This document shows, in pieces, positions 48,772 to 63,018 of a stretch of DNA of 64,000 bases. A program made the translations under genes and the position numbers. The DNA is from Tranquillimonas alkanivorans (lineage in GTDB: Bacteria > Pseudomonadota > Alphaproteobacteria > Rhodobacterales > Rhodobacteraceae): the NCBI RefSeq assembly GCF_900115595.1, contig NZ_FOXA01000007.1, positions 124,001-188,000 on the forward strand. The letters are read 5' to 3'. The notes under the pieces were generated by a model, which did no database searches, was not told the DNA's origin, and was given only the letters and a program-made list of their open reading frames with translations. Each line of letters opens with the position of its first letter. Positions within the stretch are counted from its first letter, which is position 1.

Positions 48772-49797
48772 TCAGCGCAGGCCGGCGTAGACGCGGTCGA
48801 GCACGCCGGACAGGCGGACGAGGTTTTCGGCAGAGGGATCGAAGCGCGGATCGCGTGCCAACCTCTCCGCCCAGGCCGCCGCGGCGCGGCCGCCCCAGTC
48901 GTCCGGCGGCACGGCGACGGCGCGACTGGCCGTGCCCTCGTGCAGGTGGGCCGTGAAATTGAAGAACGAGCCGTCGACATTGGCGAACGATGCCCCGCCC
49001 CCGGTGCCGTAGAAATCGGCGCCGATCACCGCGTCGCGCCCGGCAGGCAGGTTCCACGAGCAAGTGAGCCGGACCACCGCGCCGGTGGCGAGCGTCAGGG
49101 TGACGACGGCGAAATCCTCGACCTGCGCTTCGGCGTCCTCGAGCGGGCGGCCGCCGGCGTAGAGGTGGGCGGAGACGTCCGCCACCTCGGGGAAATCCAG
49201 CGCCCACAACGCCATGTCGACGAGGTGCACGCCCAGATCCATCACGCAGCCCCCGCCCGACTGCGTGACGTCGAAGAACCACGGCTTGTCGGGGCCGTAG
49301 GCGTTGTGGAACGTCAGATCCACGGCGAAGACCTCGCCCAGCGCCCCGGCGTCCAGCGCGGTGCGGATCGCGCGCAGGGCCGCGGTGTGACGGTAGGACA
49401 GGTCGACGTGCAGCAGCCGGTCCGCGCGCCGCGCCGCCGCGACGGCCGCCTCGGCTTCGTCGCGCGTCCGGCCCAGCGGCTTCTGGCAGAACACGGCCGC
49501 GCCCGCTTCGAGGGCGCGGATGGTCTGGTCGGCGTGCATGGCGCTTGGGGTCGCGATCACGACGCCGTCGGGCCGCTCGGCCAGCACCTCGTCGAGCGAG
49601 GCGCAGCGCGCGGCGCCGGGCGAGAGCGCGGCGCTGGCCTCGACAGCCTCGGGCGCGGGGTCGGAGAGCGCCACGATCTCGGCATGACCCGAGGCCGCGA
49701 TCGCCTCCATCCGGTGCCGCCCGATCCAGCCCAGCCCGACGAAGCCGAGGCGGGGCTTCCGGGTCGCGGTCTCGACGGTCGTTCGCGTGTCGCTCAT
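48772..49797 (-). CDS. Gfo/Idh/MocA family oxidoreductase of the glycan locus
   Basis: A 341-residue NAD(P)-dependent dehydrogenase-type protein. Rossmann motif GFVGLGWIGRHRM; the lysine motif reads FCQKPLGR, with Gln for the usual Glu; the His of the substrate site is probably in GGGCVMDLGVHLVDMAL. The start is taken at 49797, where it overlaps the stop of the zinc dehydrogenase gene (TGATG); an ATG two codons earlier is possible. Together the two probably oxidise and reduce the same sugar or cyclitol at different carbons. Substrate unknown. Confidence 0.88.
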   Translation of the reverse strand: MSDTRTTVETATRKPRLGFVGLGWIGRHRMEAIAASGHAEIVALSDPAPEAVEASAALSPGAARCASLDEVLAERPDGVVIATPSAMHADQTIRALEAGAAVFCQKPLGRTRDEAEAAVAAARRADRLLHVDLSYRHTAALRAIRTALDAGALGEVFAVDLTFHNAYGPDKPWFFDVTQSGGGCVMDLGVHLVDMALWALDFPEVADVSAHLYAGGRPLEDAEAQVEDFAVVTLTLATGAVVRLTCSWNLPAGRDAVIGADFYGTGGGASFANVDGSFFNFTAHLHEGTASRAVAVPPDDWGGRAAAAWAERLARDPRFDPSAENLVRLSGVLDRVYAGLR

Positions 49798-50798
49798 CAG
49801 CATGTGACGTAGGCCTTCACGAAGTCGCCCGGCTTGTCGCGCGTGGCGTCGAGGGCGGCGTCGAGCTCGGACAGGTCGTAGCTGTGGGTCAGCAGCGCCT
49901 GGAGGTCGAGCCGGCCCGAGGCGACGGCCTCGATCCCCTCGGTCATGCCGCGGACGTACTTGGCCGGGTCGCGTTCGTGCGCGTTGATCACGTCGATGCC
50001 ACGCCAGTTCCAGCTTTGCATGTCCACCTGCCGCGGCCCGTCCTGGTGGTATCCCGCGATGACCAGCCGCCCGCCGGTCGCCACCAGCGAGCCGGCGAGG
50101 TCGAGCGCGCCCTGCTTGCCCACGGCCTCGATCACCACGTCGCAGAAGCGCCCGACGGTGAGCTCTCCGACGACCTCGTGGATGCGGGTATTGTCATCCA
50201 TCGTTACCGTCTGCGCCGCGCCCATCCGCCGGGCGAGCGCGAGCGAGCTGTCGCGGCGCGAGATGGCGATGACCTCGGCCCCGGCCTCGGAGGCGAGCTG
50301 CGTGAGGATTGCGCCGAGAAAGCCGATGCCGACGATGGCGACGCGGTCGCCGGCGGCGATGCCGGAGCGGCGGAAGATGTTCATCGCGCAGCCCAGCGGC
50401 TCGGCCGGAACCGGCTGACCGTCGAGCGCGGCGGGCAGCGCCACCACCTCGGCGGCCGCCACGATGTCATGGCTGGCGAAGCTGTGCTGGCCCAGGCAGG
50501 CGACGCGCTGGCCCTCGGACAGGCCCGTCACCCCCTCGCCCAGCGCATCGATCGTGCCCCACCCCTCGTGCCCCATGTCGCCGGGGCCGGTGGGGAACTG
50601 CATCCAGTCGGGGCCCGCCCAGGGCTCGAGGTTCGAGGCGCAGACGCCGCAGCCTTCCAGCCGCACGCGCACCTCGCCCGCGCCGGGTTCGGGCAGCGGG
50701 GCCGAGACGACCTCGATCCGGCCGGGACCGGTCACGCGGACGGCGCGCATGTGCGCCGCACGGCCCTCGTGCGCAAGATCGCTGGCGGGCTTGTTCAT
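49797..50798 (-). CDS. Zinc-dependent medium-chain dehydrogenase
   Basis: A 333-residue MDR alcohol/polyol dehydrogenase. Catalytic zinc ligands are Cys53 in GCGVCASN and His77-Glu78 in MGHEGWG; the four-cysteine structural zinc lobe is missing. The NAD site is VGIGFLGAILTQLA. The start has a gcaggagga ribosome site. It is the first gene of the minus-strand pair facing the eight-gene glycan operon, with 237 bases between. A sugar or cyclitol substrate is inferred from the partner gene and the locus. Confidence 0.9.
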   Translation of the reverse strand: MNKPASDLAHEGRAAHMRAVRVTGPGRIEVVSAPLPEPGAGEVRVRLEGCGVCASNLEPWAGPDWMQFPTGPGDMGHEGWGTIDALGEGVTGLSEGQRVACLGQHSFASHDIVAAAEVVALPAALDGQPVPAEPLGCAMNIFRRSGIAAGDRVAIVGIGFLGAILTQLASEAGAEVIAISRRDSSLALARRMGAAQTVTMDDNTRIHEVVGELTVGRFCDVVIEAVGKQGALDLAGSLVATGGRLVIAGYHQDGPRQVDMQSWNWRGIDVINAHERDPAKYVRGMTEGIEAVASGRLDLQALLTHSYDLSELDAALDATRDKPGDFVKAYVTC

Positions 50799-50909
50799 GG
50801 GTTCCTCCTGCATGCTCGCGGGGCCGGCGGGAAGGCCCCGGCGGCCGCTTCTTCACCGTCCCAATTCCGCGCCCCCGCGATCTGTTCCGGAAGAAGCTGC
50901 GCGCCCCTT

Positions 50910-51035: not shown

Positions 51036-52142
51036 ATGACGACCATCCTCATCACCGGAGGCTGCGGCTTCATTGGCCGCCACGTCGCCGAAGAGATGCT
51101 CGGGCGCGGCTACGACGTGCGCCTTTACGACGCGATGATCGACCAGGTTCACGGCGACACGCAGGTCGACCTGCCCGAGGGCGCCGACCTGATCCGGGGC
51201 GAGATGCGCGACCGCGAGCGGCTGCGCGGGGCGCTGAAAGGCTGCGACGGCGTCATCCACCTGGCCGCCGAGGTCGGCGTGGGCCAATCGATGTATGAGA
51301 TCGCCCGTTACGTCGGTGCCAACGACCTGGGCACGGCGGTTCTGCTCGAGGAGCTGCTGGAGCACCCGGTGCGCCGGCTGGTCATTGCCTCGTCGATGAG
51401 CATCTACGGCGAAGGCTACTATGCCACCGAAGACGGGCGGGTGCTGGAAACCATCCGTCGCCGGCCCGAGGACGTGCGCGCCGGTCAGTGGAACCCGACC
51501 GGCCCGGACGGCGAGGCGTTGACCGCGATCCCGACGGACGAGCACAAGCGCCCGGACCTCGCCTCGATCTACGCGCTGACGAAGTATGCGCAGGAGCGCG
51601 AGGCGCTGATCTTCGGCGATGCTTACGAGACGGAGGCGGTGGCGCTGCGGCTGTTCAACGTGTTCGGCGCGGGACAGGCGCTGTCGAATCCCTATACCGG
51701 CGTGCTGGCCAACTTTGCCTCGCGCCTGGCGAACGGCGAGCGGCCGACGATCTTCGAGGACGGCGAGCAGAAGCGGGATTTCGTGCACGTCCGCGACGTG
51801 GCCCGCGCCTTCCGCCTGGCCTACGAGACACCGGAGGCGGCGGGCGAGACGTTCAACGTGGGCTCCGGGCAGGCCTATACCGTCTCGGGCGTGGCCCGGC
51901 TGCTGGCCGGCGCGATGGATCTGCCGCAACTGACGCCCGAAATCCTGGGCAAGTCCCGCTCGGGCGACATCCGCAACTGCTTCGCCGACGCCACCAAGGC
52001 GCGCGACATGCTGGGCTTCGAGGCGGAACTGAGGCTCGAGGATTCGCTGGACGAGTTCGTCGACTGGGTCCGCGGCGAGGTCGTGCAGGACCGCGGCGCC
52101 GACATGCGCCGGCACCTGGAGGAACGAGGGCTCGTCACATGA
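51036..52142 (+). CDS. NAD-dependent sugar epimerase (dTDP-rhamnose 4-epimerase-like)
   Basis: A 368-residue extended SDR acting on nucleotide sugars. Cofactor motif GGCGFIG (8-14); catalytic Ser-Tyr-Lys as SSMSIYGEGYY (119-129) and Tyr179-x3-Lys183 in SIYALTKYAQ; LFNVFGAGQALSNPYTG and DFVHVRDVARAF are typical of 4-epimerases. The long insertion between strands (about 130-170, including GQWNPTGPDG) recalls dTDP-L-rhamnose 4-epimerases. First gene of an eight-gene operon; the stop overlaps the next start (ATGA). Confidence 0.88.
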   Translation: MTTILITGGCGFIGRHVAEEMLGRGYDVRLYDAMIDQVHGDTQVDLPEGADLIRGEMRDRERLRGALKGCDGVIHLAAEVGVGQSMYEIARYVGANDLGTAVLLEELLEHPVRRLVIASSMSIYGEGYYATEDGRVLETIRRRPEDVRAGQWNPTGPDGEALTAIPTDEHKRPDLASIYALTKYAQEREALIFGDAYETEAVALRLFNVFGAGQALSNPYTGVLANFASRLANGERPTIFEDGEQKRDFVHVRDVARAFRLAYETPEAAGETFNVGSGQAYTVSGVARLLAGAMDLPQLTPEILGKSRSGDIRNCFADATKARDMLGFEAELRLEDSLDEFVDWVRGEVVQDRGADMRRHLEERGLVT

Positions 52143-54151
52143 GACGGCTCTCGGACTACGGCTTCGTCGAGTGGTTCCGCCCCGGTGAACACGACCGGGT
52201 CGAAGAAACGCTGCCGGGCCTTGTCGCGTCCGGCGCGAAGCACCTGCGCACGCACCTGTCCTGGGCCGAGTACCACGCGCCCGGCGGGCAGGAGTGGTAC
52301 GACTGGCTGCTGCCGAAGCTGGGCGCGCATTTCGACGTGCTGCCCTGCGTGCACTACACGCCGCCGTCCTTGTCGCGCACCGGCAAGTCCTCGGGCCCGC
52401 CGAAGAACCCCAAGGATTACGCCGACTTCATCGACATGGCGCTCACCCGCCACGGTGAACACTTCACGCATGTCGAGCTGTGGAACGAGCCCAACAACCT
52501 GCTCGACTGGGACTGGCGGGTGGACCCCGACTGCGCGATCTTCGCCGAGATGGTGGGCGGCGCGGCCCACTGGGTTCGCGAGCGTGGCTGGAGGCCGGTG
52601 CTGGGGGGGCCTTGCCCCTTCGATCCAGTGTGGCTCGACACGATGGGTCGCCGCGGGGTGCTCGACAGGGTCGACGCCGTCGGCTTCCACGGCTTCCCCG
52701 GCACCTGGGACAGCGAAGAGGGCAGCTGGGAAGGCTGGCACACGCATCTCGACGCGATGCGCCGCATCCTGCGCAGCTATAACGAGACCGCCGAGGTCTG
52801 GATCACGGAGGCCGGTTACTCCACGTGGCGCGGCGACCAGATCGAACAGGTCCGGCGGTTCGACGAATGCCTCTCGGCCCCGGCCGAGCGAGTCTATTGG
52901 TATTCCTGGCGCGACCTTCCGCCCGAGGTGGCGGTGCAGGAGGGTCACTGGTTCGACCCGCGCCACTACCACCTTGGTGTCGTGGACGCGGACAACAACC
53001 CGAAGCTTCTGGGCCGGCTGCTGAAGTCCGGCGGACTCCAGCGGCTCGACGGCGTGCTGGAGCTCGCCGCCCCGCGCGTGGCCCGTGCCGCCGAGCCCGT
53101 GGTGATCACCGGCGGCAGCGGCTTCATCGGCTCGAACCTCGCCGACAGCATCCTCAGCGACGGGCGCGAGGTGGTCGTGGTCGACAACCTCAGCCGCGAC
53201 GGCGTGGAACAGAACCTCGCCTGGCTGGCCGAACGGCACGGCCAGCGCGTGCACGCCGTCCCGGCTGACCTGCGCAACGTTCAGGCCATGCGCGATGCCG
53301 TGCACGACGCGGCGACGGTGGTGCACCTGGCCGCGCAGACGGCGGTGACCACCAGCTTGGATGCGCCGGTTGACGATTTCGAGGTCAACGCACGCGGCAC
53401 GCTCAACGTGCTCGAGGCAATCCGCACCACGGGACGGCAGGTGCCGGTGGTCTTCGCCTCGACCAACAAGGTCTACGGCGCGCTCGACGACATGGAGATG
53501 GAGCCGCTCAACGACCGTTACCTCCCTGCCGATCCCGACCTGCGCGCACGCGGAGTGGGCGAGGATCGGCCGCTGGACTTCTGCACGCCGTACGGCTGTT
53601 CGAAGGGCGTGGCGGACCAGTACGTGCTGGACTACGCCAAGTCCTACGGCATCCCGGCGGCGGTGCTGCGGATGAGCTGCATCTACGGCCCGCGCCAGTT
53701 CGGAACCGAGGACCAGGGCTGGGTCGCCCACTTCCTGATCCGCGCGCTGAAGGGCGAGCCGATCTCGGTCTTCGGCGACGGCCGGCAGGTGCGCGACATC
53801 CTGCACGTGGACGACGCCGTGGCCGCCTATCGCGCGGTCATGGGCAACGTCGGCAGCATTTCGGGCCGGGCCTTCAACCTGGGCGGCGGGCCGGGCAACG
53901 CCGTGAGCCTCGTCGCCGTCCTGCGCGAGATCGAGGCCGTCATCGGCCGGCCGGTCGAGGTGCATCACGGTGACTGGCGGCAGGGCGACCAGCATTACTT
54001 CGTGGCCGACACCACGCGGCTGACGCAGGCGACCGGATGGCGCCCTCGCGTCGGCTGGCGCGACGGGATCGCGCAACTCGCCGACTGGCTGGCGGAAAAC
54101 CGGGTCGCACCCTCCGCCCCCGCGCGGGAACCGGAGCGTCTGCGCGCATGA
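52139..54151 (+). CDS. Fusion: clan GH-A-like glycosidase plus CDP-paratose 2-epimerase-like SDR
   Basis: A 670-residue protein with two enzymes in one chain. Residues 1-310 form a TIM-barrel glycosidase: acid/base Glu117 in VELWNEPNN and nucleophile Glu224 in VWITEAGYSTW, the strand 4 and strand 7 pair of retaining clan GH-A enzymes, with substrate-binding WYSWRDLP. Residues 318-670 are an extended SDR: GGSGFIG (325-331), FASTNKVYG, Tyr485-x3-Lys489 in TPYGCSKGVADQYVLDYA and IYGPRQFGTEDQGWVAHF, closely patterned on CDP-paratose 2-epimerase (RfbE). No signal peptide, so both act in the cytosol. Overlaps both neighbours (ATGA). The split is not a frameshift: frame is open across the junction. 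Confidence 0.85.
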   Translation: MRRLSDYGFVEWFRPGEHDRVEETLPGLVASGAKHLRTHLSWAEYHAPGGQEWYDWLLPKLGAHFDVLPCVHYTPPSLSRTGKSSGPPKNPKDYADFIDMALTRHGEHFTHVELWNEPNNLLDWDWRVDPDCAIFAEMVGGAAHWVRERGWRPVLGGPCPFDPVWLDTMGRRGVLDRVDAVGFHGFPGTWDSEEGSWEGWHTHLDAMRRILRSYNETAEVWITEAGYSTWRGDQIEQVRRFDECLSAPAERVYWYSWRDLPPEVAVQEGHWFDPRHYHLGVVDADNNPKLLGRLLKSGGLQRLDGVLELAAPRVARAAEPVVITGGSGFIGSNLADSILSDGREVVVVDNLSRDGVEQNLAWLAERHGQRVHAVPADLRNVQAMRDAVHDAATVVHLAAQTAVTTSLDAPVDDFEVNARGTLNVLEAIRTTGRQVPVVFASTNKVYGALDDMEMEPLNDRYLPADPDLRARGVGEDRPLDFCTPYGCSKGVADQYVLDYAKSYGIPAAVLRMSCIYGPRQFGTEDQGWVAHFLIRALKGEPISVFGDGRQVRDILHVDDAVAAYRAVMGNVGSISGRAFNLGGGPGNAVSLVAVLREIEAVIGRPVEVHHGDWRQGDQHYFVADTTRLTQATGWRPRVGWRDGIAQLADWLAENRVAPSAPAREPERLRA

Positions 54152-55254
54152 CCGACTGCCTGACGATACCCTCCGCGCACCCGCCGCGCGTGCTGATGAC
54201 GCTCGACGCCGTGGGCGGCGTGTGGCGCTACGCCATCGACCTGGCGCGCGGCCTGCGTGACGCCGGGTGCGGAGTCACGCTCGCCGGCTTCGGCCCCCGC
54301 CCCGAGGCCGCGAAGCAGCAGGAGGCCGAGGCGGTCGGCACGCTCGACTGGTGCGATGCGCCGCTTGACTGGATGTGCGAGAGCGAGGCGCAATTGCGCG
54401 ACGTTCCGGCCGAGATGAAGCGCCTGATCCGCACCCACCGACCCGACGTGGTACAGGTGAACTACCCGTCGCAGGCCGCAAGGCTGGACGTGCAGGTGCC
54501 CGTGGTCGCTGTCTCGCATTCCTGCGTCGCCACGTGGTTCGCCGCCGTGCGCGGCACGGAGCTTCCGACGAACTGGCAATGGCAGGCGCGGCTGAACCGG
54601 GCAGGCTTTGACCGGGCCGACGCCGTTGTCGCCCCCTCCCGTGCCCATGCGGCGCTGATGGAGCGGACCTATGGCCCGATCACCGAGCTGCGCGCGGTGC
54701 ACAATGCCACCTCCGCGCCAGAGGCCGACGGCCCCGGCGGCGAGCGTGTGATCGCCATGGGCCGCTGGTGGGACGATGGCAAGGACGGCGCGACGCTCGA
54801 CGCCGCCGCCGGCATGACCGGCTGGCCCGTGACGATGCTGGGCGCCACGACCGGCGGGAACGGCACGCACCTCGACGTGCGCAACGCCGAGGCGCCGGGC
54901 GAGATGGACCACGCCCGCGCGCTCGATCACCTGCGCCATGCCGGCGCCTTCGTCGCGCCCTCGATCCACGAACCCTTCGGCCTGGCCGTGGCCGAGGCCG
55001 CGCGGGCCGGACTGCCGCTGGTGCTGTCGGATATCCCGACGTTCCGCGAACTTTGGGACGGCGCGGCGGTCTTCGTCCCTCCGCGCGACCCCACGGCGCT
55101 GGCCGACGCGCTCAACCATCTCGCCGCCGCACCCGAGCGTCGCCGCGCACTCGGCACCGCCGCCCGGACCCGCGCGGCCCGCTACACGCCGGCGGCGCAG
55201 ACCCACGGCATGCTCGACCTCTACGCAACACTGCCCGCGACGGAGGCCGCCTGA
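54148..55254 (+). CDS. GT4-type glycosyltransferase
   Basis: A 368-residue GT-B glycosyltransferase. The N-terminal acceptor domain starts RVLMTLDAVGGVWRYAIDLA; the donor domain ends with SIHEPFGLAVAEAARAGLPL, the E-x7-E motif of retaining family 4 enzymes that bind nucleotide sugar. No membrane span. Start overlaps the fusion gene's stop (ATGA) and its stop overlaps the next start (TGATG). Donor and acceptor unknown; the epimerases in the operon suggest a modified hexose. Confidence 0.9.
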   Translation: MTDCLTIPSAHPPRVLMTLDAVGGVWRYAIDLARGLRDAGCGVTLAGFGPRPEAAKQQEAEAVGTLDWCDAPLDWMCESEAQLRDVPAEMKRLIRTHRPDVVQVNYPSQAARLDVQVPVVAVSHSCVATWFAAVRGTELPTNWQWQARLNRAGFDRADAVVAPSRAHAALMERTYGPITELRAVHNATSAPEADGPGGERVIAMGRWWDDGKDGATLDAAAGMTGWPVTMLGATTGGNGTHLDVRNAEAPGEMDHARALDHLRHAGAFVAPSIHEPFGLAVAEAARAGLPLVLSDIPTFRELWDGAAVFVPPRDPTALADALNHLAAAPERRRALGTAARTRAARYTPAAQTHGMLDLYATLPATEAA

Positions 55255-56372
55255 TGCGATTTCTCTTCTACACCCACTCGCTCGTTTCGGACTGGAACCA
55301 CGGCAACGCTCACTTCCTGCGGGGCGTGATGCGCGATCTCGTCCGCCGGGGGCACGAGGCCGTCGCGCTTGAACCCGAAGGCGCGTGGAGCCGCGTGAAC
55401 CTGGTGACCGACCAGGGGCAGGCCCCGGTGATGGAGTTCCACCGCACGTTCCCGATGCTCGAATCGCGCCAGTACGGCCTCGATTTCGATCACGAGGCCG
55501 AGCTGGACCGTGCCGACGTCGTGGTGGTCCACGAATGGACAGACCCCGCGCTCGTCGCCCGTATCGGCCGTGCCCGCGAGGCCGGCGGACGCTTCCGGCT
55601 GCTGTTCCATGACACTCACCACCGCGCCGTGAGCGCCGAGAGCGACATCCGCGGACTCGACCTGTCGGGCTATGACGGCGTGCTGGCCTTCGGCGAGGCG
55701 CTGCGCCAGCTTTACCTCGACGCGGGCTGGGGCCGGCAGGTCTTTACCTGGCACGAGGCCGCCGACGACGCGCTGTTTCACCCCGTGGAGGCGCCCGAGG
55801 AGGGCGACCTGATCTGGATCGGCAACTGGGGGGACGACGAACGGACCGAGGAGCTGGAAGAGTTCCTGATCGAACCGGCCGAGACACTTAACCTGCGCAC
55901 GAAAATCCACGGCGTCCGGTACCCAGATGCGGCGCTGGAGCGGCTGGACGCCGCCGGCATCGACTATGGCGGCTGGATCGCCAACGCGAAGGTGCCCGAG
56001 ACCTTCGCGCGCTTCAAGGTGACGGTGCACGTCCCCCGCCGCCCGTATGTCGAGGCGCTGCCGGGCATTCCCACGATCCGCCCGTTCGAGGCGATGGCCT
56101 GCGGCATCCCGCTGGTCTCGGCCCCGTGGGACGACGCCGAGGGGCTGTTCCGCCCCGGCACCGACTACCTGATCGCGCAGGACGGGGCCGAGATGAAGCG
56201 CCACCTGTCGACGCTCATGAACGAGCCCGCCGCGCGCGAAGAACTGGCGCAGCACGGGCTCGCCGCCATCCGCGCGCGCCACACCTGCCGCCACCGGGTC
56301 GAGGAGCTTCTCGCCATCCTCGACCGGCTCGCGACGCCCGCCACGACCCCCGCCAAGGAGACCGCCGAATGA
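55254..56372 (+). CDS. CgeB-like glycosyltransferase 1
   Basis: A 372-residue GT-B protein of the CgeB/YkvP group. The N-terminal nucleotide-domain opening is FYTHSLVSDWNHGNAHFLRG; the donor-site block is RPFEAMACGIPLVSAPWDD near residue 276. It is the first of three related genes in a row that share this block at the same place (residues 272-276). No signal or membrane segment. Overlaps both neighbours. Likely adds one sugar; its donor cannot be told from sequence. Confidence 0.86.
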   Translation: MRFLFYTHSLVSDWNHGNAHFLRGVMRDLVRRGHEAVALEPEGAWSRVNLVTDQGQAPVMEFHRTFPMLESRQYGLDFDHEAELDRADVVVVHEWTDPALVARIGRAREAGGRFRLLFHDTHHRAVSAESDIRGLDLSGYDGVLAFGEALRQLYLDAGWGRQVFTWHEAADDALFHPVEAPEEGDLIWIGNWGDDERTEELEEFLIEPAETLNLRTKIHGVRYPDAALERLDAAGIDYGGWIANAKVPETFARFKVTVHVPRRPYVEALPGIPTIRPFEAMACGIPLVSAPWDDAEGLFRPGTDYLIAQDGAEMKRHLSTLMNEPAAREELAQHGLAAIRARHTCRHRVEELLAILDRLATPATTPAKETAE

Positions 56373-57460
56373 CCTCAATCGCCTTCTACGGCTCGAGCAT
56401 CCTGTCCGCCTACTGGAACGGCGCGGCGACCTACTACCGGGGCATGCTGCGTGCGCTGGCGGCCGAGGGCTACGCGATCACCTTCTACGAGCCCGACGTG
56501 CTCGACCGACAGAACAATCGCGACATCGAGCCGCCGTCGTGGTGCGACGTGGTAGTCTACGACGGCACGGTCGAGGGGCTGAAGGCCGCCGCCGCCCGCG
56601 CCGCCGAGGCCGACATCGTGGTCAAGGCCAGTGGCGTGGGGTTCGAGGACGACCTGGTGCTGGCCGAGGTGATGAAAGCCGCGCGGCCCGACGCGCTGCG
56701 CATCTTCTGGGACGTCGACGCTCCCGCCACGCTGGCCGAGATGCAGACCGCGCCGGACCACCCTCTGCGACGCACCCTGCCCGACCTGGACCTCGTGCTG
56801 ACCTACGGCGGCGGCGACCCGGTCGTGAGCGCGTATCGCGACCTCGGCGCGCGCGAGTGCGTGCCGATCTACAACGCGCTCGACCCGGACACGCACCACC
56901 CCGCCCCGCCGCAGGAGCGGTTCCGGGGCGACCTCGCCTTCCTTGGCAACCGCCTGCCCGACCGCGACGCGCGGGTCGAGGAGTTTTTCCTGCGCCCCGC
57001 CAAGCAGACGCCCGAGGCCCGGTTCCTGCTGGGCGGCTCGGGCTGGGACGCCTATCCGCTGCCGCGCAACGTGCACCTTCTGGGCCACGTCCGCACCGCC
57101 GACCACAACGCGCTGAACTGCACGCCGCGCATGGTGCTGAACGTGGCGCGCGACAGCATGGCGAAGAACGGCTACTCCCCCGCCACCCGCGTGTTCGAGG
57201 CCGCCGGCGCCGGCGCCTGCCTGATCACCGATGCGTGGGAGGGGATCGAGCTGTTCCTCGAACCGGGCGAAGAGGTCCTGGTCGCCCGCGACGGCGAGGA
57301 CGTGGCGGAGATCCTCAAGACCCTGCCCGACGACGCGCCGCAGCAGATCGGCGCGCGCGCCCGCGCCCGCGTGCTGGCCGAGCACACCTATGCCGACCGC
57401 GCCAAGCAGGCCGACGCGCTGTTCCGCGCCCACGCCCCCAGGCTGGAGGCCGCGTCGTGA
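56369..57460 (+). CDS. CgeB-like glycosyltransferase 2
   Basis: A 363-residue paralogue of the preceding gene. N-terminal motif YWNGAATYYRGMLRAL (residues 15-30) and donor block RVFEAAGAGACLITDAWEG near 274. A middle segment FWDVDAPATLAEM carries acidic residues where the other two have FHDTHHRAV and FYDIDTPVTMDKL. Starts inside the stop of gene 1 (ATGA) and ends overlapping gene 3 (GTGA). Similarity to the neighbours is clear but moderate, so the duplications are old and the specificities probably differ. Confidence 0.86.
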   Translation: MTSIAFYGSSILSAYWNGAATYYRGMLRALAAEGYAITFYEPDVLDRQNNRDIEPPSWCDVVVYDGTVEGLKAAAARAAEADIVVKASGVGFEDDLVLAEVMKAARPDALRIFWDVDAPATLAEMQTAPDHPLRRTLPDLDLVLTYGGGDPVVSAYRDLGARECVPIYNALDPDTHHPAPPQERFRGDLAFLGNRLPDRDARVEEFFLRPAKQTPEARFLLGGSGWDAYPLPRNVHLLGHVRTADHNALNCTPRMVLNVARDSMAKNGYSPATRVFEAAGAGACLITDAWEGIELFLEPGEEVLVARDGEDVAEILKTLPDDAPQQIGARARARVLAEHTYADRAKQADALFRAHAPRLEAAS

Positions 57461-58551
57461 GCATGGACATCGTCATCCTGGGCCTCACGCTCTCGTCCTC
57501 CTGGGGCAACGGCCACGCCACGACCTTCCGCTCGCTTTTGCGGGGGCTGAACGCGGACGGGCACCGGGTGCTGTTCCTGGAACGCGACGCGCCGTGGTAC
57601 GCGCCCCACCGCGACCTGCCGGACCCGGACTTTTGCGAACTGCGGCTTTACGACGACATCCCCGCGATGCTCGAGAACTACCGCGACCGCCTGCTGTCCG
57701 CCGACGCGGTGATCGTGGGTTCCTACGTCCCCGAGGGGCCGAGGCTGATCGACGCGCTGCACGAGATGCGGCCGAACCTGCTGTGCTTCTACGACATCGA
57801 CACGCCGGTGACGATGGACAAGCTGGATGCCGGTGACGAGGAGTACCTGTCGCCCCGGCAGATCCCGCTGTTCGACACCTATTTCTCGTTCTCCGGCGGC
57901 GAGGTGCTGGATCACCTCGAACGCGAGCGGGGTGCGCAGCGGGCAGAGGCGCTTTACTGCTCGGTCGATCCCGACCGCTATGCCAGCCGTCCCGACGCAC
58001 CCAAGAAATGGGACCTGGGCTACCTGGGCACGTACAGCCCCGACCGGCAGCCCCCGCTGGAACAGTTGCTGATCGAGCCGGCCCACCGCCTGCCAGAGAT
58101 GCGTTTCATCGTGGCCGGCCCGGGCTACCCGGACGACATCGACTGGCCGGACAACGTCGAGCGGATCGACCACCTGCCGCCGGCCGAACACGAGGATTTC
58201 TACAACGCGCAGCGCTTCACGCTTAACGTCACCCGCGCGGCGATGCGGAGGATGGGCTGGTCGCCCAGCGTTCGCCTGTTCGAGGCCGCCGCCTGCGGCA
58301 CCCCCATCGTCAGCGACGCCTGGCGCGGCTTGAGCGAGCTTCTGCCGGACGGAGAGGCGGCGATCATAGCAGAGACAACCGAAGACGTGGTTCGCGCGCT
58401 GACAGATCTGAATGACGCCGAGCGGCGTAAGATCGGTAAAGGCGGCATGGACCGCGTGCTGTCGGCCCACACGGGCCGCGCCCGCGCGCGTGATCTGGTT
58501 CGGGCCTTGTCGTCGGCCCGGGCGGATGCGCCGCAGGCCGTGGGCATGTGA
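57457..58551 (+). CDS. CgeB-like glycosyltransferase 3
   Basis: A 364-residue third paralogue. N-terminal motif SWGNGHATTFRSLLRGL and donor block RLFEAAACGTPIVSDAWRG near residue 273; the middle acidic motif is LLCFYDIDTPVTMDKL. The GTG at 57457 is taken as start because ggagg lies eight bases before it and GTGA overlaps the previous stop; an ATG at 57463 is an alternative. Twelve bases separate its stop from the next gene. Confidence 0.85.
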   Translation: MSMDIVILGLTLSSSWGNGHATTFRSLLRGLNADGHRVLFLERDAPWYAPHRDLPDPDFCELRLYDDIPAMLENYRDRLLSADAVIVGSYVPEGPRLIDALHEMRPNLLCFYDIDTPVTMDKLDAGDEEYLSPRQIPLFDTYFSFSGGEVLDHLERERGAQRAEALYCSVDPDRYASRPDAPKKWDLGYLGTYSPDRQPPLEQLLIEPAHRLPEMRFIVAGPGYPDDIDWPDNVERIDHLPPAEHEDFYNAQRFTLNVTRAAMRRMGWSPSVRLFEAAACGTPIVSDAWRGLSELLPDGEAAIIAETTEDVVRALTDLNDAERRKIGKGGMDRVLSAHTGRARARDLVRALSSARADAPQAVGM

Positions 58552-58563
58552 GGGAGAGTAGTG

Positions 58564-59595
58564 ATGAACATGATCAGACCCAACGACTCGGGCCCGCGCA
58601 CCATCGTCGTGGCGGGCGGCGCGGGCTTCGTCGGATCGCACCTGTGCGAGAACCTGCTTCAGCAGGGCCACCGCGTGATCTGCGTCGACAGCTTCCTGAC
58701 GGGAACCGAGGCGAACGTCGAGCCGCTGTCGAACTTCGCGGGCTTCCGGCTGATCCGCCAGGACGTGGCCGAACCGCTGGACCCCGGCGAGCCGGTGGAC
58801 GAGATCTACAACCTCGCCAGCCCCGCCTCGCCGCCGCATTACCAGGCGGACCCGGTGCACACGATGATGACCAACGTCGTGGGCACGGCGCGCCTGCTCG
58901 ACCTCGCCTCGGCGCACGAGGCGCGGTTCCTGCAGGCCTCGACCAGCGAGATCTACGGCGACCCCGAGCAGCACCCCCAGCGCGAGGATTACCTGGGCCA
59001 CGTGAACTGCACCGGGACGCGCGCCTGTTATGACGAGGGCAAGCGCGCGGCCGAGGCTCTGTGCTACGACTATGCCCGCACCCGCGGGCTGGACGTGCGC
59101 GTGGCGCGGATCTTCAACACCTACGGGCCCCGGATGCGCCCCGACGACGGGCGCATCGTGTCGAACATGATCGTGCAGGCCCTGGCCGGAGAGCCGCTGA
59201 CCGTCTACGGCACCGGCAAGCAGACGCGGTCGTTCTGCTTCGTGTCGGACCTCGTCGACGGGCTGATGGCGCTGATGAACGTCTCCGCCGCCCCCGACGC
59301 GCCGGTGAACCTGGGCAACCCGCAGGAATTCTCGATCGCCGAGCTCGCCTCCCAGGTACGCGACCTGATCCCCAGTGGATCGCAGATCGTGCACCGCCCG
59401 CTGCCCGAGGACGACCCCAAGCGCCGCCGCCCCGACATCAGCCGGGCGAAGGAGCTTCTGGGCTGGTCGCCCAAGGTCAGCCTCGACCGCGGCCTGCCCG
59501 AGACGGCGAGTTGGTTCGCCCTGCATCTCGGCCACGGGCCGATTCCCCAAACCAACCGGACAAGCGGCGCGCGCGCCGCGGGAGCGACTGCATGA
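58564..59595 (+). CDS. UDP-glucuronate decarboxylase (UDP-xylose synthase) family SDR
   Basis: A 343-residue extended SDR. Cofactor motif GGAGFVGSHL (18-27). The decarboxylase signature is present: IYNLASPASPPHYQADPVHT, STSEIYGDP with Glu129, HVNCTGTRACYDEGKRAAE with Tyr156 and Lys160, and NTYGPRMRPDDGRIVSNMI. Such enzymes turn UDP-glucuronate into UDP-xylose via a 4-keto intermediate. The ATG at 58564 sits behind agggagag. This gives a plausible pentose donor for the glycosyltransferases upstream. No UDP-glucose dehydrogenase is in the window. Confidence 0.9.
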   Translation: MNMIRPNDSGPRTIVVAGGAGFVGSHLCENLLQQGHRVICVDSFLTGTEANVEPLSNFAGFRLIRQDVAEPLDPGEPVDEIYNLASPASPPHYQADPVHTMMTNVVGTARLLDLASAHEARFLQASTSEIYGDPEQHPQREDYLGHVNCTGTRACYDEGKRAAEALCYDYARTRGLDVRVARIFNTYGPRMRPDDGRIVSNMIVQALAGEPLTVYGTGKQTRSFCFVSDLVDGLMALMNVSAAPDAPVNLGNPQEFSIAELASQVRDLIPSGSQIVHRPLPEDDPKRRRPDISRAKELLGWSPKVSLDRGLPETASWFALHLGHGPIPQTNRTSGARAAGATA

Positions 59596-60356
59596 ACCTT
59601 CACGCGACCCCGAAGAGCGAGGATACGGCCCGCCGCATCCGCGAGCTGGGGCCGTGGTTCCAGAACATGCGCCTGGACGGGATCGACACGGCCCCCGACC
59701 ACTTCCTGGGCGACTATCCCCGCTTCAAGTGGGAGGGGTTCCGCCACGTCGTCCCCGAGGACCTGACCGGAAAGACCGTCCTGGACATCGGCTGCAACGC
59801 GGGCTTCTACGCGCTCGAGATGGCGCGCCGGGGGGCGAGCCGCGTCGTCGGCATCGACAGCGACCCGCATTACCTGGCCCAAGCCGAGTTCGCCGCCGAG
59901 CGCGAGGGGCTGGACATCGAGCTGCGGCAGATGTCGGTCTACGACGTGGGCAGCCTGGGCGAGCGCTTCGACCTCGTGATCTTCATGGGCGTGCTCTATC
60001 ACCTGCGCCACCCACTCCTGGCGCTCGACCTGCTGCACGAGCACGTCGTCGGCGACATGATGCTGTTCCAGTGCATGCAGCGCGGGTCCGAGGCGGTGGC
60101 GAAACTGCCCGAGAACCACGACTTCGACGACTGGTCGCCGTTTCGCCGCGAGGATGCGCCGACGCTGTGGTTCGTCGAGGAGCGGTATTCCGACGACCCG
60201 ACCAACTGGTTCATCCCCAACCGCGCCGCCGTCGAGGCGATGCTGCGCTCGTCCGGCTTCGAGATCGCGGCCCACCCCGAGCGCGAGGTCTACATGTGCA
60301 CCCGCGGCGAACGCTACTTCGCCGCCGACCCGCCACCGAAGATCGCCGGCGCCTGA
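59592..60356 (+). CDS. SAM-dependent methyltransferase (TIGR04290-like)
   Basis: A 254-residue class I methyltransferase. Motif I TVLDIGCNAGFYALEMARRG (62-81), motif II around VVGIDSDPHYLAQA, and FDLVIFMGVLYHLRHP. Overall it resembles CmoB-related proteins and, from memory, the Rta_06860 family, seen near glycosyltransferase genes; that recall is unverified. It is the last gene of the operon and overlaps the decarboxylase stop (ATGA). Methylation of a sugar hydroxyl or carboxyl is the likely role. Confidence 0.86.
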   Translation: MNLHATPKSEDTARRIRELGPWFQNMRLDGIDTAPDHFLGDYPRFKWEGFRHVVPEDLTGKTVLDIGCNAGFYALEMARRGASRVVGIDSDPHYLAQAEFAAEREGLDIELRQMSVYDVGSLGERFDLVIFMGVLYHLRHPLLALDLLHEHVVGDMMLFQCMQRGSEAVAKLPENHDFDDWSPFRREDAPTLWFVEERYSDDPTNWFIPNRAAVEAMLRSSGFEIAAHPEREVYMCTRGERYFAADPPPKIAGA

Positions 60357-60359
60357 GCG

Positions 60360-61163
60360 TCAGGCCGGCGTCGCTTCGGCGCCGTCCCCGGCCTCGGGCT
60401 TGGGTGCGGCGAAGGCGGGCGGCGGGCCGAAAAGCCGGGCCGACAAATCCACCATCTCGTCGTCGAAAATCGCGCGGTAGCGGGCGTCGTTCTCGTAGGC
60501 GCGCCAGCGCTCGCGCGTGCGCATCTCGGCCGCGCGCCCGTCGAAGGCCGTGCCGTCGAACGAGCTTCCCCCCTGCGTGCGCGGCACTTCGTCCGCGCCG
60601 GCGTCGGTGAAGCGCAGGCCAAGTTGCCCGGCGACGTCTTTCCTGTAGTCGCGGTCGACCGCCCAGCGGTTGTAGAGGACCACGACCTTGTCCCTGACCT
60701 TACGCGTCTCGCCCAGCGCCTCGCGCGCATGCTGTTTCCACATGCGGCGCGAGATATGCGGCGACAACGCCGCTCCCATCTTCAGCCGGCTGGCGAACAG
60801 GTTGAACGGGTCGCGCAGGATCAGAAGACGCACCCGACGCTTCGACGGCCCGAGCCACGTGTCGTGGTTTTCTTCCAGCGGCTTGCTGAAGGCGTGGGCA
60901 AGCCAGCTGTCCTCGTAGCTGTGAAACAGCAGCGCCTTGTCCGCGAAACGCCCCGCCGCCTCGGCCTCGACGTCGAAGTCCGGCTCACCACGCCAGCCGA
61001 AGCCGCCGGTCGACAGCGGGCGGCAGGTCTCGAACGGGTTGGTCTTGCCCTCTGCGCAGTTGAGAAGAAGCTTCGGAGCGTCGGCCTGGGCGAAGATCCA
61101 GTTCGCCACTGCGTGGTTGCCGCTTCGGGACATGCCCAATGCCTGGATCTCGAGCTCGTTCAC
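60360..61163 (-). CDS. Sulfotransferase-like protein
   Basis: A 267-residue P-loop protein. GMSRSGNHAVANWIF (10-24) fits the 5'-phosphosulfate-binding loop (usual form G-x-x-R-S-G-T/N), and LLILRDPFNLFASRLKMG (113-130) the 3'-phosphate-binding motif with RDP and a conserved Ser. If so it would transfer sulfate from PAPS to the glycan. Other P-loop transferases have similar loops, so the reaction is inferred. The C-terminal 30 residues are Ala/Pro-rich. It converges on the operon with three bases between stops. No PAPS synthesis genes are seen here. Confidence 0.72.
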   Translation of the reverse strand: MNELEIQALGMSRSGNHAVANWIFAQADAPKLLLNCAEGKTNPFETCRPLSTGGFGWRGEPDFDVEAEAAGRFADKALLFHSYEDSWLAHAFSKPLEENHDTWLGPSKRRVRLLILRDPFNLFASRLKMGAALSPHISRRMWKQHAREALGETRKVRDKVVVLYNRWAVDRDYRKDVAGQLGLRFTDAGADEVPRTQGGSSFDGTAFDGRAAEMRTRERWRAYENDARYRAIFDDEMVDLSARLFGPPPAFAAPKPEAGDGAEATPA

Positions 61164-61248: not shown

Positions 61249-63018
61249 TCACTCGTCCAGCCCGTGGCGCTTCTCCGGCTCGCCCTCGCGCACGAGCGTG
61301 GCGAAGGACAGCGGCGGCAGTTCCAGCCCCACCTCTGACGTGCGCACGCTCATGCCGGGGCCGCAGACAAGATCTCCCCCGCCGAGCTTTTCCAGCCGCA
61401 CGCTTTGCCGCGAGGTCGAGAAGTTGGCCACGCAGGTCATCGTACGCCCGCCGCCGAACCGATCCCAGATGATCAGCGGGGCCAGCTTCGGCGAATGCAC
61501 CAGTTCGCCACCCCATCGCAGAAGCGGCTGGTCCTTCCGCCACGCTAGGAAATCGCGCAGGAAGTGCAGCGGGCTGTCCTCGCGCGCCTCTTGCGCGGCA
61601 ACACTCAGCCCGCAATGGGTGTCGGGCACGTCGATCCACGGGCTGTCGCCGTCGGTGAACCCGCAGCGCGGCGGCTGTCCGGTCCAGGGCATTGGCGTCC
61701 GCGCCCCGTCGCGCCCTTCGAAATCCGGCCAGAACGCCTTGCCCCAGGGATCGCGCAGATCCTCGTACTCGAGCTGCGGATGCGGCAGGCCCAGTTCCTC
61801 GCCCTGGTACAGGATGCCGCCGCCCTTCAGCGCGAACTGCATGAACATCAGAAGCTTCGCCGCCTCCTCGCGCAGACCCGCCTCTTCGGCGAAATGGGTC
61901 AGGTCGCTGACCGCGCGCTTGGAGTCGTGGTTCGAAAACACGTTCATCATCCAGCCCGTCCGCAGGTACGAGCTGCGATAGGTCAGGATGTCGGTCAGCG
62001 GCTCCACGTCCTTCGGCCCGTTGACCAGGCTGAAGTCGTAGATCGCGTGCAGGCCCATGCCGTCGACGGTGTATTTCTCGCTCAGCCGGGCCGAGTCCAC
62101 GTCGGCGAGTTCCCCGATCAGAACGCGCTCGGGTTCGAAATCGCTCAGCGCCTCGCGCATCCGCTCGATGATCGGGAACGCCTCGGGCACGTCGCGGTCA
62201 TAGAGGTGCGCCTGCTGGCGGAACGGGTTGTTCTTGCCGCCGCCCAGCGGAGCCACCGGCCCCTTCGACGATTCCGGCGGGTTCCACCGCAGGTCGGGGT
62301 CGAAGGCCAGGCACTGCACCGCATCCAGCCGGAACCCGTCCGCCCCCCGCTCGAGCCAATAGCGCATGGCGTCGATGACGGCGTCCAGCACCTCGGGCTT
62401 TTGCAGGTTCAGCGCCGGCTGGCAGGTCAGGAACGGGTGATAATAATACTGCGACCGCCGCGGCTCCCACGTCCAGGCGGGCCCGCCGAACGACGACAGC
62501 CAATTGTTGGGCGGCCCGCCGTCGGGGCGCGCGTCGGCCCAGACGTACCAGTCGCCGTACTGCCCCCCGGGGTCGCTGCGGCTTTGCTGGAACCACGGAT
62601 GCTCCTCGGAGGTGTGGCAGGGGATGAAATCCAGCAGCACCTTCAGACCCCGCGCATGCGCCCCGTCCACCAGCGCGGCGAAGTCCGCCATGTCGCCATG
62701 GATCGGGTCGATGGAGCGGAAATCGGTGACGTCGTAGCCAAAATCCTTCTGCGGCGAAGGACTGATCGGGCTTAGCCAGAACCCGTCGACGCCGAGGCTC
62801 TCGATGTAATCGAGCTTCTCGATCACGCCCTTCAGATCTCCGATCCCGTCGCCCGAGGCGTCGCGGAAGCTGCGCACGTACACCTGGTAGAGCGCCGCCC
62901 CCCGCCACCACTCGCGCCGGGTCATCGGCTCGATCGGGTCGCGCAGGGTGGCGCGCGCCATCATCGCCTCGCGCGTCAGCCTCAGGGTCGAGGGGCTGCG
63001 TCGGTTGATCTCGTCCAT
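61249..63018 (-). CDS. GH13 family alpha-glucosidase / transglucosidase
   Basis: A 589-residue alpha-amylase-fold enzyme. Catalytic residues: Asp232 in GFRLDAV, Glu303 in LIGELAD, Asp365 in FSNHDSKR. The domain order is barrel (about 38-480) then a beta C-domain. Opening WWRGAALYQVYVRSFRDASG and KDFGYDVTDFRSIDPIHGD match the oligo-1,6-glucosidase/alpha-glucosidase branch. No signal peptide, so it is cytosolic. It may hydrolyse or transfer glucose on the locus product, or act in general maltose/trehalose use; no sugar transporter adjoins it. Confidence 0.92.
   Translation of the reverse strand: MDEINRRSPSTLRLTREAMMARATLRDPIEPMTRREWWRGAALYQVYVRSFRDASGDGIGDLKGVIEKLDYIESLGVDGFWLSPISPSPQKDFGYDVTDFRSIDPIHGDMADFAALVDGAHARGLKVLLDFIPCHTSEEHPWFQQSRSDPGGQYGDWYVWADARPDGGPPNNWLSSFGGPAWTWEPRRSQYYYHPFLTCQPALNLQKPEVLDAVIDAMRYWLERGADGFRLDAVQCLAFDPDLRWNPPESSKGPVAPLGGGKNNPFRQQAHLYDRDVPEAFPIIERMREALSDFEPERVLIGELADVDSARLSEKYTVDGMGLHAIYDFSLVNGPKDVEPLTDILTYRSSYLRTGWMMNVFSNHDSKRAVSDLTHFAEEAGLREEAAKLLMFMQFALKGGGILYQGEELGLPHPQLEYEDLRDPWGKAFWPDFEGRDGARTPMPWTGQPPRCGFTDGDSPWIDVPDTHCGLSVAAQEAREDSPLHFLRDFLAWRKDQPLLRWGGELVHSPKLAPLIIWDRFGGGRTMTCVANFSTSRQSVRLEKLGGGDLVCGPGMSVRTSEVGLELPPLSFATLVREGEPEKRHGLDE

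Follow-up and report, generated by a model that had tools for sequence, protein, structure and literature searches.

A conserved gene module in Tranquillimonas alkanivorans that may assemble a short methylated oligosaccharide or glycoside, and its variant with a circularly permuted glycosidase

Results

The DNA analysed here, called the window, is a stretch of 64,000 nucleotides from the genome of Tranquillimonas alkanivorans (contig NZ_FOXA01000007.1). It contains an operon of eight plus-strand genes at positions 51036-60356, which belongs to a recurring gene module that may build a short oligosaccharide or glycoside. The first gene encodes EPI1, a nucleoside diphosphate (NDP)-sugar epimerase/dehydratase of the extended short-chain dehydrogenase/reductase (SDR) type (51036-52142; PF01370, 168 bits). 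It shares an ATGA overlap with the gene for a fusion protein, GHx-EPI2 (52139-54151). The N-terminal part of the fusion is a PslG-like (beta/alpha)8 barrel with the putative catalytic residues Glu117 and Glu224 (GHx, 52139-53068; AlphaFold model, Foldseek, and VIA), and the C-terminal part is an NDP-sugar 2-epimerase-like domain (EPI2, 53069-54151). Four transferase genes follow: a GT4 glycosyltransferase (54148-55254, ATGA overlap; PF13439, 70 bits, and PF00534, 55 bits) and three CgeB-like transferases, each from its own clade, namely CgeB1 of the first (55254-56372, TGATG overlap; PF13524, 131 bits), CgeB2 of the second (56369-57460, ATGA overlap; PF13524, 141 bits), and CgeB3 of the third (57457-58551, GTGA overlap; PF13524, 131 bits). 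The last two genes encode UXS, a UDP-glucuronate decarboxylase-like protein (UDP-xylose synthase; 58564-59595), and MT, an S-adenosylmethionine (SAM)-dependent methyltransferase (59592-60356, ATGA overlap).

This layout had been proposed in a first-pass annotation made from the letters and open reading frames of the window. The eight starts mapped as it had them, with six of the seven junctions overlapping. Only the junction before UXS has a gap, of 12 bases, or 9 if GTG 58561 is the start; an alternative start of CgeB3 at ATG 57463 would turn its overlap with CgeB2 into a 2-base gap. Family searches agreed with the family names it had given, the fused epimerase being closest to CDP-tyvelose 2-epimerase, and the methyltransferase it had called TIGR04290-like scored 381 bits against a curated cut-off of 300. 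The eight proteins were also described as free of membrane spans, and a Kyte-Doolittle hydropathy scan found no transmembrane-like segment in any of them. No signal-like segment was found at GHx or in the operon.

To place the operon among its relatives, 385 alphaproteobacterial genomes were scanned for TIGR04290, which was over its cut-off in 16. Fifteen other neighbourhoods from this draw went into a set of 95 loci. The other 80 loci came from named genomes and are the best 80 of 559 confirmed stretches, with close relatives over-represented. Gene order was determined by tblastn, ignoring other intervening genes; the relatives' genes themselves were called by a G+C-periodicity script, which misses some genes and extends some starts and was not used for the order counts.

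The full order EPI1-GHx-EPI2-GT4-CgeB1-CgeB2-CgeB3-UXS-MT was present in 31 of the 95 loci. Twelve more had the window order minus the GH domain, one more had it with a radical-SAM gene inserted, and CgeB1-CgeB2-CgeB3 kept their order in 75 of the 76 loci having all three. Because the same module order recurs in 31 of 95 related loci, the order of the operon is more than chance. Conservation of order had been named in the first-pass annotation as one of the points on which its proposal would stand or fall, and the order held. Additional genes recur with the module in some relatives. A TIGR04295-type gene (B12_rSAM_oligo), whose member in one locus (L041) scored 701 bits against a cut-off of 400, lies between EPI2 and GT4 in 24 loci; its best match in the window's own genome reached 19.6 bits. 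Inositol-3-phosphate synthase (INO1) was found in 33 loci, a histidine phosphatase in 33, and a stand-alone glycosidase, GHx2, in 39, often beside the methyltransferase.

The flanks of the operon were treated in the same way. On the minus strand upstream lie genes for a Gfo/Idh/MocA oxidoreductase (48772-49803; Pfam PF01408 and PF22725) and a zinc-dependent alcohol dehydrogenase-like protein (49797-50813; PF00107 and PF08240). Homologues of the first occur in 24 of the 95 loci and of the second in 39, divergent beside EPI1 in 34. By this recurrence, both divergent dehydrogenases belong to the module.

The module reaches far beyond Rhodobacteraceae, and its distribution is patchy. The glycosidase was found in 6 of 198 genomes of the window's own family, its own included, and the methyltransferase on 133 of 72,556 plasmid records (E up to 1e-40). 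Together with the 16 of 385 class genomes having TIGR04290, this spread would suit a secreted small glycoside, such as a signal or an antibiotic-like metabolite, released by an unlinked transporter. We think this improbable, as the module contains no transporter and the recurrent families brought up no obvious gene for making a polyketide, peptide, or terpene aglycone.

Next to be considered were the enzymes that would supply and join the sugars. The nearest solved chains of EPI1 are NAD-dependent epimerases and UDP-glucose 4-epimerase, making it a 4-epimerase-like SDR. Among SDR enzymes with solved structures, EPI2 was nearest to CDP-tyvelose 2-epimerase (1orr; 275 bits, compared with 138 bits for the next different family) and UXS to human UXS1 (380 bits, compared with 141 bits for the next family). 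UXS probably forms UDP-xylose, judging by this similarity. One nucleotide-sugar dehydrogenase of UDP-glucose dehydrogenase type in the window's genome exceeds the TIGR03026 cut-off (468.6 bits, on another contig), so that UXS probably has a source of UDP-glucuronate. Eight of the 95 loci have a member of this family at 113-690 bases from the module genes, usually adjoining EPI1; the two members checked were both over the cut-off though cut by the locus edge.

In a FastTree phylogeny, which gave a long-branch warning, the CgeB-like proteins formed three clades of 72, 78, and 93 rows with support of 100, 100, and 95. The 93 rows of the CgeB3 clade include a fourth CgeB-like protein that some relatives have. 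Three clades are compatible with three non-interchangeable steps. CgeB probably glycosylates proteins on the Bacillus spore crust, and the homology through PF13524 raises the idea that the three enzymes glycosylate proteins, such as a surface layer or flagellin; sequential O-glycosylation by soluble enzymes needs no lipid carrier gene. This explanation seems quite unlikely to us. The recurrent neighbours in the 95 loci, where most families are unnamed, offered no conspicuous candidate for an acceptor protein, and the INO1-phosphatase-glycosidase set of some relatives fits nowhere obvious in it.

Membrane genes were then scored by hydropathy around the module. Inside it, no gene with at least four membrane-like segments was found in the 85 loci having at least four module genes, and 24 diverse genes of this kind lay within 4 kb outside. 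The absence of an export or polymerase gene from the operon, already pointed out in the first-pass annotation, extends to the interior of the module in these 85 relatives, and a Wzx/Wzy or ABC (ATP-binding cassette)-exported polysaccharide cluster was rejected on this ground. An importer-type ABC ATPase was the sole recurrent transport family seen (13 loci, one member checked); it lies 1.1-10 kb from the nearest module gene and is never adjacent.

Another possible explanation is that the operon supplies a lipid-anchored glycan of the cell surface, either a lipopolysaccharide core or a glycolipid, with its outer sugars, the lipid carrier, flippase, and export genes lying elsewhere. Soluble GT4 and CgeB-like enzymes would also suit a lipid-linked acceptor at the inner membrane face, and a polysaccharide pyruvyl transferase-type gene lies 0-2.5 kb from module genes in seven loci. 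The lack of membrane genes inside the module and the limitation of recurrent transport to a non-adjacent importer-type ATPase speak against it. So do the GH domain and the INO1 of the relatives, which to our knowledge are not usual in surface-glycan clusters. We regard this explanation as somewhat unlikely.

The glycosidase half of the fusion, GHx, was defined as fusion residues 1-310. With E values of up to 10 allowed, it matched no Pfam family, and by sequence it had no clear relative in the PDB (best E 0.15). In its AlphaFold model (predicted local distance difference test, pLDDT, 83.3; predicted template modelling score, pTM, 0.86), eight strands form a barrel; Glu117 directly follows strand 4, and Glu224 sits where strand 7 ends. 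All 33 aligned members keep both residues. A glutamate in each of these two positions is the pattern of clan GH-A. As modelled, GHx has the fold and glutamates of a retaining glycosidase of this clan, which is its putative activity. Foldseek placed three PslG entries first (E 4e-13 to 3e-12), followed by a GH39 enzyme. The VIA search gave Z scores of 24.0-24.4 for PslG (9g17: 3.3 Å over 296 residues) and 23.4 and below for GH1 enzymes, so that PslG and GH1 glycosidases are hardly separable for GHx by this score. Assignment to glycoside hydrolase family 39 was rejected: GHx of the window did not match Pfam Glyco_hydro_39, and the member at L092 scored 11.1 bits with it, below the cut-off of 26. 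GHx is therefore named PslG-like and not a GH39 member.

As judged from profile alignments, the stand-alone GHx2 is a circularly permuted homologue of GHx. GHx2 starts just before a WNEPNN motif, at about residue 110 of GHx, and residues 8 to about 107 of GHx have their counterpart in the C-terminal third of GHx2. The unrotated GHx and GHx2 profiles aligned over 178 columns with a score of 221. After rotation at about residue 198, they aligned over 279 columns with a score of 308 (E 1e-45), and a rotation scan in steps of 10 peaked at 190-200. When the GHx2 profile was run on whole genomes, it retrieved GHx in two parts whose order is swapped, also in the window. The GHx2 model (pLDDT 85.6) has eight strands, the first of which bears WNEPNN. 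Order-dependent structure searches with it returned generic barrels only (Z up to 13.3; best Foldseek E 4e-4), which a permutation would lead one to expect but which does not prove it; the kinship of GHx and GHx2 is claimed because of the profile alignment and not the structure searches. One GHx2 (L044) is barely over the cut-off of Pfam Glyco_hydro_cc, its residue 3 aligning with profile position 67.

Two trivial explanations of the permutation were rejected. All 31 GHx2 genes have an ATG at residue 1, which speaks against a wrongly chosen start or a partly duplicated gene. The 600 bases upstream contained no second copy of the moved part, the single hit there being 11 residues long (E 0.6). 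The frame upstream of GHx2 is open for at least 60 codons in 8 of 31. In Devosia aurantiaca (L131, G434:C3:151102-151985), the GHx2 match falls in two overlapping open frames, as if frameshifted. Public annotations call GHx2 a 'beta-xylosidase' or a hypothetical protein (Roseomonas mucosa plasmids, e.g., NZ_CP025188.1:135800-136681).

The distribution of the two glycosidase forms was examined in the same class genomes, scoring at most six candidates per genome. GHx or GHx2 was present in 14 of the 385, all among the 16 with TIGR04290; the two TIGR04290 genomes having neither were 82% and 83% complete. These 16 and another 50 genomes, hand-chosen from the 80 named ones, make a set of 66 genomes with TIGR04290. 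A glycosidase was found in 64 of the 66: GHx only in 29, GHx2 only in 31, and both in four, leaving two with neither. INO1 followed GHx2. It was absent from all 29 GHx-only genomes and present in 28 of 31 with GHx2 only, in all four with both, and in one of the two with neither. The difference between GHx-only and GHx2-only genomes has a Fisher p of 4e-14, ignoring kinship. For these calls, a 21.8-bit match in G421 was not counted and two pieces in G433 (218.6 and 83.9 bits) were; full-length INO1 homologues reached 419-575 bits and stayed below the curated cut-off of 638. TIGR04295 occurs in both groups (6 of 29 GHx-only and 14 of 31 GHx2-only genomes).

The state of EPI2 also tracks the glycosidase. 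Among the 49 genomes in which EPI2 was seen, unfused EPI2 was accompanied by GHx2 in 18 of 18 and fused EPI2 in 3 of 31. The EPI2 tree shows 10 changes between the fused and unfused states, of which four or more are on supported branches. At four independent supported switches, GHx2 follows the unfused state in two to four (mean 3.5) and never opposes it. With so few switches, a kinship-aware sign test of EPI2 fusion against GHx2 gave a median p of 0.125, too few for significance. Three genomes that have GHx2 without INO1 (G147, G421, and G432), the four with both forms, and the two with neither speak against a strict swap. We tentatively suggest, at a little under even confidence, that there are two interchangeable versions of the pathway, the GHx2/INO1 one being inositol-based, and that a permutation in clan GH-A has apparently been exchanged several times with its unpermuted homologue. 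Since INO1 and a phosphatase accompany the permuted glycosidase, the acceptor or building block of this second variant is probably myo-inositol.

Both variants occur in well-known strains. On pSymB of Sinorhizobium meliloti 1021 (NC_003078.1, 242439-257896), we found the inositol variant, with matches to MT, UXS, CgeB3 to CgeB1, GT4, an unfused EPI2, EPI1, the alcohol dehydrogenase, the MocA-type oxidoreductase, INO1, the phosphatase, and GHx2; the radical-SAM gene had no match at this module. The three CgeB genes lie at about 244.3-247.6 kb there, and INO1 and GHx2 within 255.2-257.9 kb. The locus searched on p42b of Rhizobium etli CFN 42 (NC_007763.1, 53391-64938; RHE_RS22265-RS22300) has the fused variant, with the same ten genes as the window. 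Some close Rhizobium species additionally have GHx2 and INO1 elsewhere. The window's own genome does not have the inositol variant: it has no TIGR03450 match for INO1 and no GHx2, and its EPI2 is fused to GHx.

Downstream of the operon, the neighbours listed in the first-pass annotation fared differently from the two dehydrogenases. On the minus strand at 60360-61163 is a sulfotransferase-like gene without an NCBIfam or Pfam match, a label presumed from the first-pass annotation and a motif; its link to the module is uncertain. A place in the module was not supported for it, with a homologue nearby in just 2 of the 95 loci (tblastn). The GH13 alpha-amylase-family gene beyond it (61249-63018, minus strand; PF00128, 342 bits) was likewise not supported as part of the module, being near it in 3 of 95 loci at 30-37% identity.

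Other genes were seen near the module in relatives. A nucleotidyltransferase family occurs in 17 loci (the member at L114:9180-9980 (+) is PF00483), in most cases as the immediate neighbour of a CgeB-like gene, the methyltransferase, or GHx2. Seven loci (L088:10743-12491 (-), L058, L087, L101, L106, L124, and L131) contain a family of about 580 amino acids that adjoins INO1 in six of them; the L088 member has no Pfam match. Polysaccharide pyruvyl transferase-type and FrhB/FdhB-type genes lie together near the module in L087, L088, L106, L110, L124, L125, and L131, and one member of each type was checked (PF04230 in L124; FrhB/FdhB type in L125). A large protein in one neighbourhood (L096:6464-8998 (-)) joins an SDR epimerase domain to VKOR and SPW membrane domains by Pfam, and L093 and L102 have proteins with a similar start and membrane count, by hydropathy only. 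A defence-system reading of the operon was rejected, as seven window proteins gave one PADLOC match, a 49.9-bit methyltransferase overlap.

Discussion

We lean modestly toward reading the operon as an assembly line in the cytoplasm whose single defined product is a short oligosaccharide or glycoside that is methylated and contains xylose. The protein families, conserved order, three CgeB clades, absence of membrane genes, permutation, and association with INO1 all come from sequence. UXS would convert UDP-glucuronate to UDP-xylose, and EPI1 and EPI2 would make further NDP-sugars, EPI2 probably by C2 epimerisation. GT4 would start the chain, CgeB1, CgeB2, and CgeB3 would each add one specific sugar, and the TIGR04290 enzyme would methylate the chain. 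The PslG-like glycosidase fused to EPI2 could trim, proof-read, or recycle the product. The second variant would use the permuted glycosidase, inositol-phosphate synthase, and phosphatase, with myo-inositol as an acceptor or block. In this scheme, we infer that the product is soluble and of fixed length, how its steps are ordered, what each enzyme and in particular the glycosidase does, and that inositol is one of the components.

The first-pass annotation had arrived at a similar product from a similar argument. What stands of it is that four soluble transferases form a dedicated and conserved set with donor enzymes and a methyltransferase. A free oligosaccharide, as opposed to a glycolipid head group or a protein glycan, and a capping methyl group are possible features of the product. 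It had missed the PslG-like half of the fusion, the place of the dehydrogenases in the module, the spread beyond Rhodobacteraceae, and the GHx2/INO1 variant.

Several points weigh against an assembly line of this kind. A glycosidase in a biosynthetic operon may mean polymer processing, by analogy with PslG and Psl as described in PMC9075953 and PMC11912335. Export genes could sit elsewhere in the genome, as the membrane-gene scan covered neighbourhoods. CgeB-like and GT4 enzymes also work in lipid-linked and protein glycosylation. Finally, the window's genome is without INO1 and TIGR04295, so these do not point to an acceptor in the fused variant.

The module appears to be a widespread, undescribed system, in which just two proteins have NCBIfam models, both without a function. 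No published account was found in openly licensed PubMed Central (PMC) papers for TIGR04290, TIGR04295, rhizo-twelve, or CgeB with inositol-3-phosphate synthase. Among the matches listed from the same source, there was likewise none for CgeB with UDP-xylose or with a rhizobial methyltransferase/epimerase system. If the proposal is true, soil, plant-associated, and marine bacteria share an undescribed class of soluble pathway for methylated, xylose-containing oligosaccharides. Sinorhizobium meliloti, Rhizobium etli, Bradyrhizobium, Roseomonas, and Paracoccus all have this ten-gene pathway without a known product, and Acidobacteriota and Bacteroidota contain relatives of it. From the fixed order of its four transferases, the product is predicted to be a defined oligosaccharide, which mass spectrometry of laboratory strains should reveal. 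Since both variants are in model strains (S. meliloti 1021 and R. etli CFN 42), this prediction is directly testable. The two glycosidase forms are in addition a natural experiment on the role of a hydrolase inside a biosynthetic pathway and, with the fused and permuted forms taking each other's place, a case of natural circular permutation.

Comparison with known systems

Parts of the module resemble systems already described. The mycothiol pathway uses INO1 and the GT4 enzyme MshA, which glycosylates inositol phosphate, and the second variant of the module similarly combines a GT4 with a phosphatase and a homologue of INO1. It differs in that its INO1 homologues are under the cut-off of 638, there are three extra transferases, and the window's genome has no INO1. 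The methyltransferase of the window and the radical-SAM protein of its relatives belong to TIGR04290 and TIGR04295, two hypothetical equivalogs for which no function is given; 'rhizo-twelve' is presumably the name of their system. The permutation recalls GH70, a permuted relative of GH13 in another clan than GH-A. Both are natural circular permutations of a glycosidase (beta/alpha)8 barrel, but here the permuted and unpermuted forms replace each other in one pathway, and the fold is of clan GH-A and PslG-like. No circular permutation in GH39, PslG, or clan GH-A was found among the literature matches listed.

PslG, the top Foldseek match of GHx, is described in PMC9075953 and PMC11912335 as the intracellular hydrolase of the Psl exopolysaccharide cluster of Pseudomonas aeruginosa and a retaining endo-beta-glucosidase. 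The two systems have in common a retaining glycosidase, putative in the module, that is co-transcribed with glycosyltransferases. Psl is an exopolysaccharide, whereas the module has no membrane gene and its glycosidase is either fused to a sugar-nucleotide epimerase or permuted.

By architecture, the module may work most like the mycobacterial methylmannose polysaccharide (MMP) cluster, although we claim membership of neither this cluster nor that of Psl. As described in PMC9883506, the MMP cluster is small, conserved, and scattered, it comprises MeT1, a putative MeT3, ManT, and MmpH, and the products of its hydrolase prime new chains. Both systems would combine glycosyltransferase and methyltransferase activities with a dedicated glycosidase in a small, scattered cluster. 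The module differs in having four distinct ordered transferases in place of one ManT, its own predicted UDP-xylose synthesis, and a PslG-like glycosidase fused to an epimerase.

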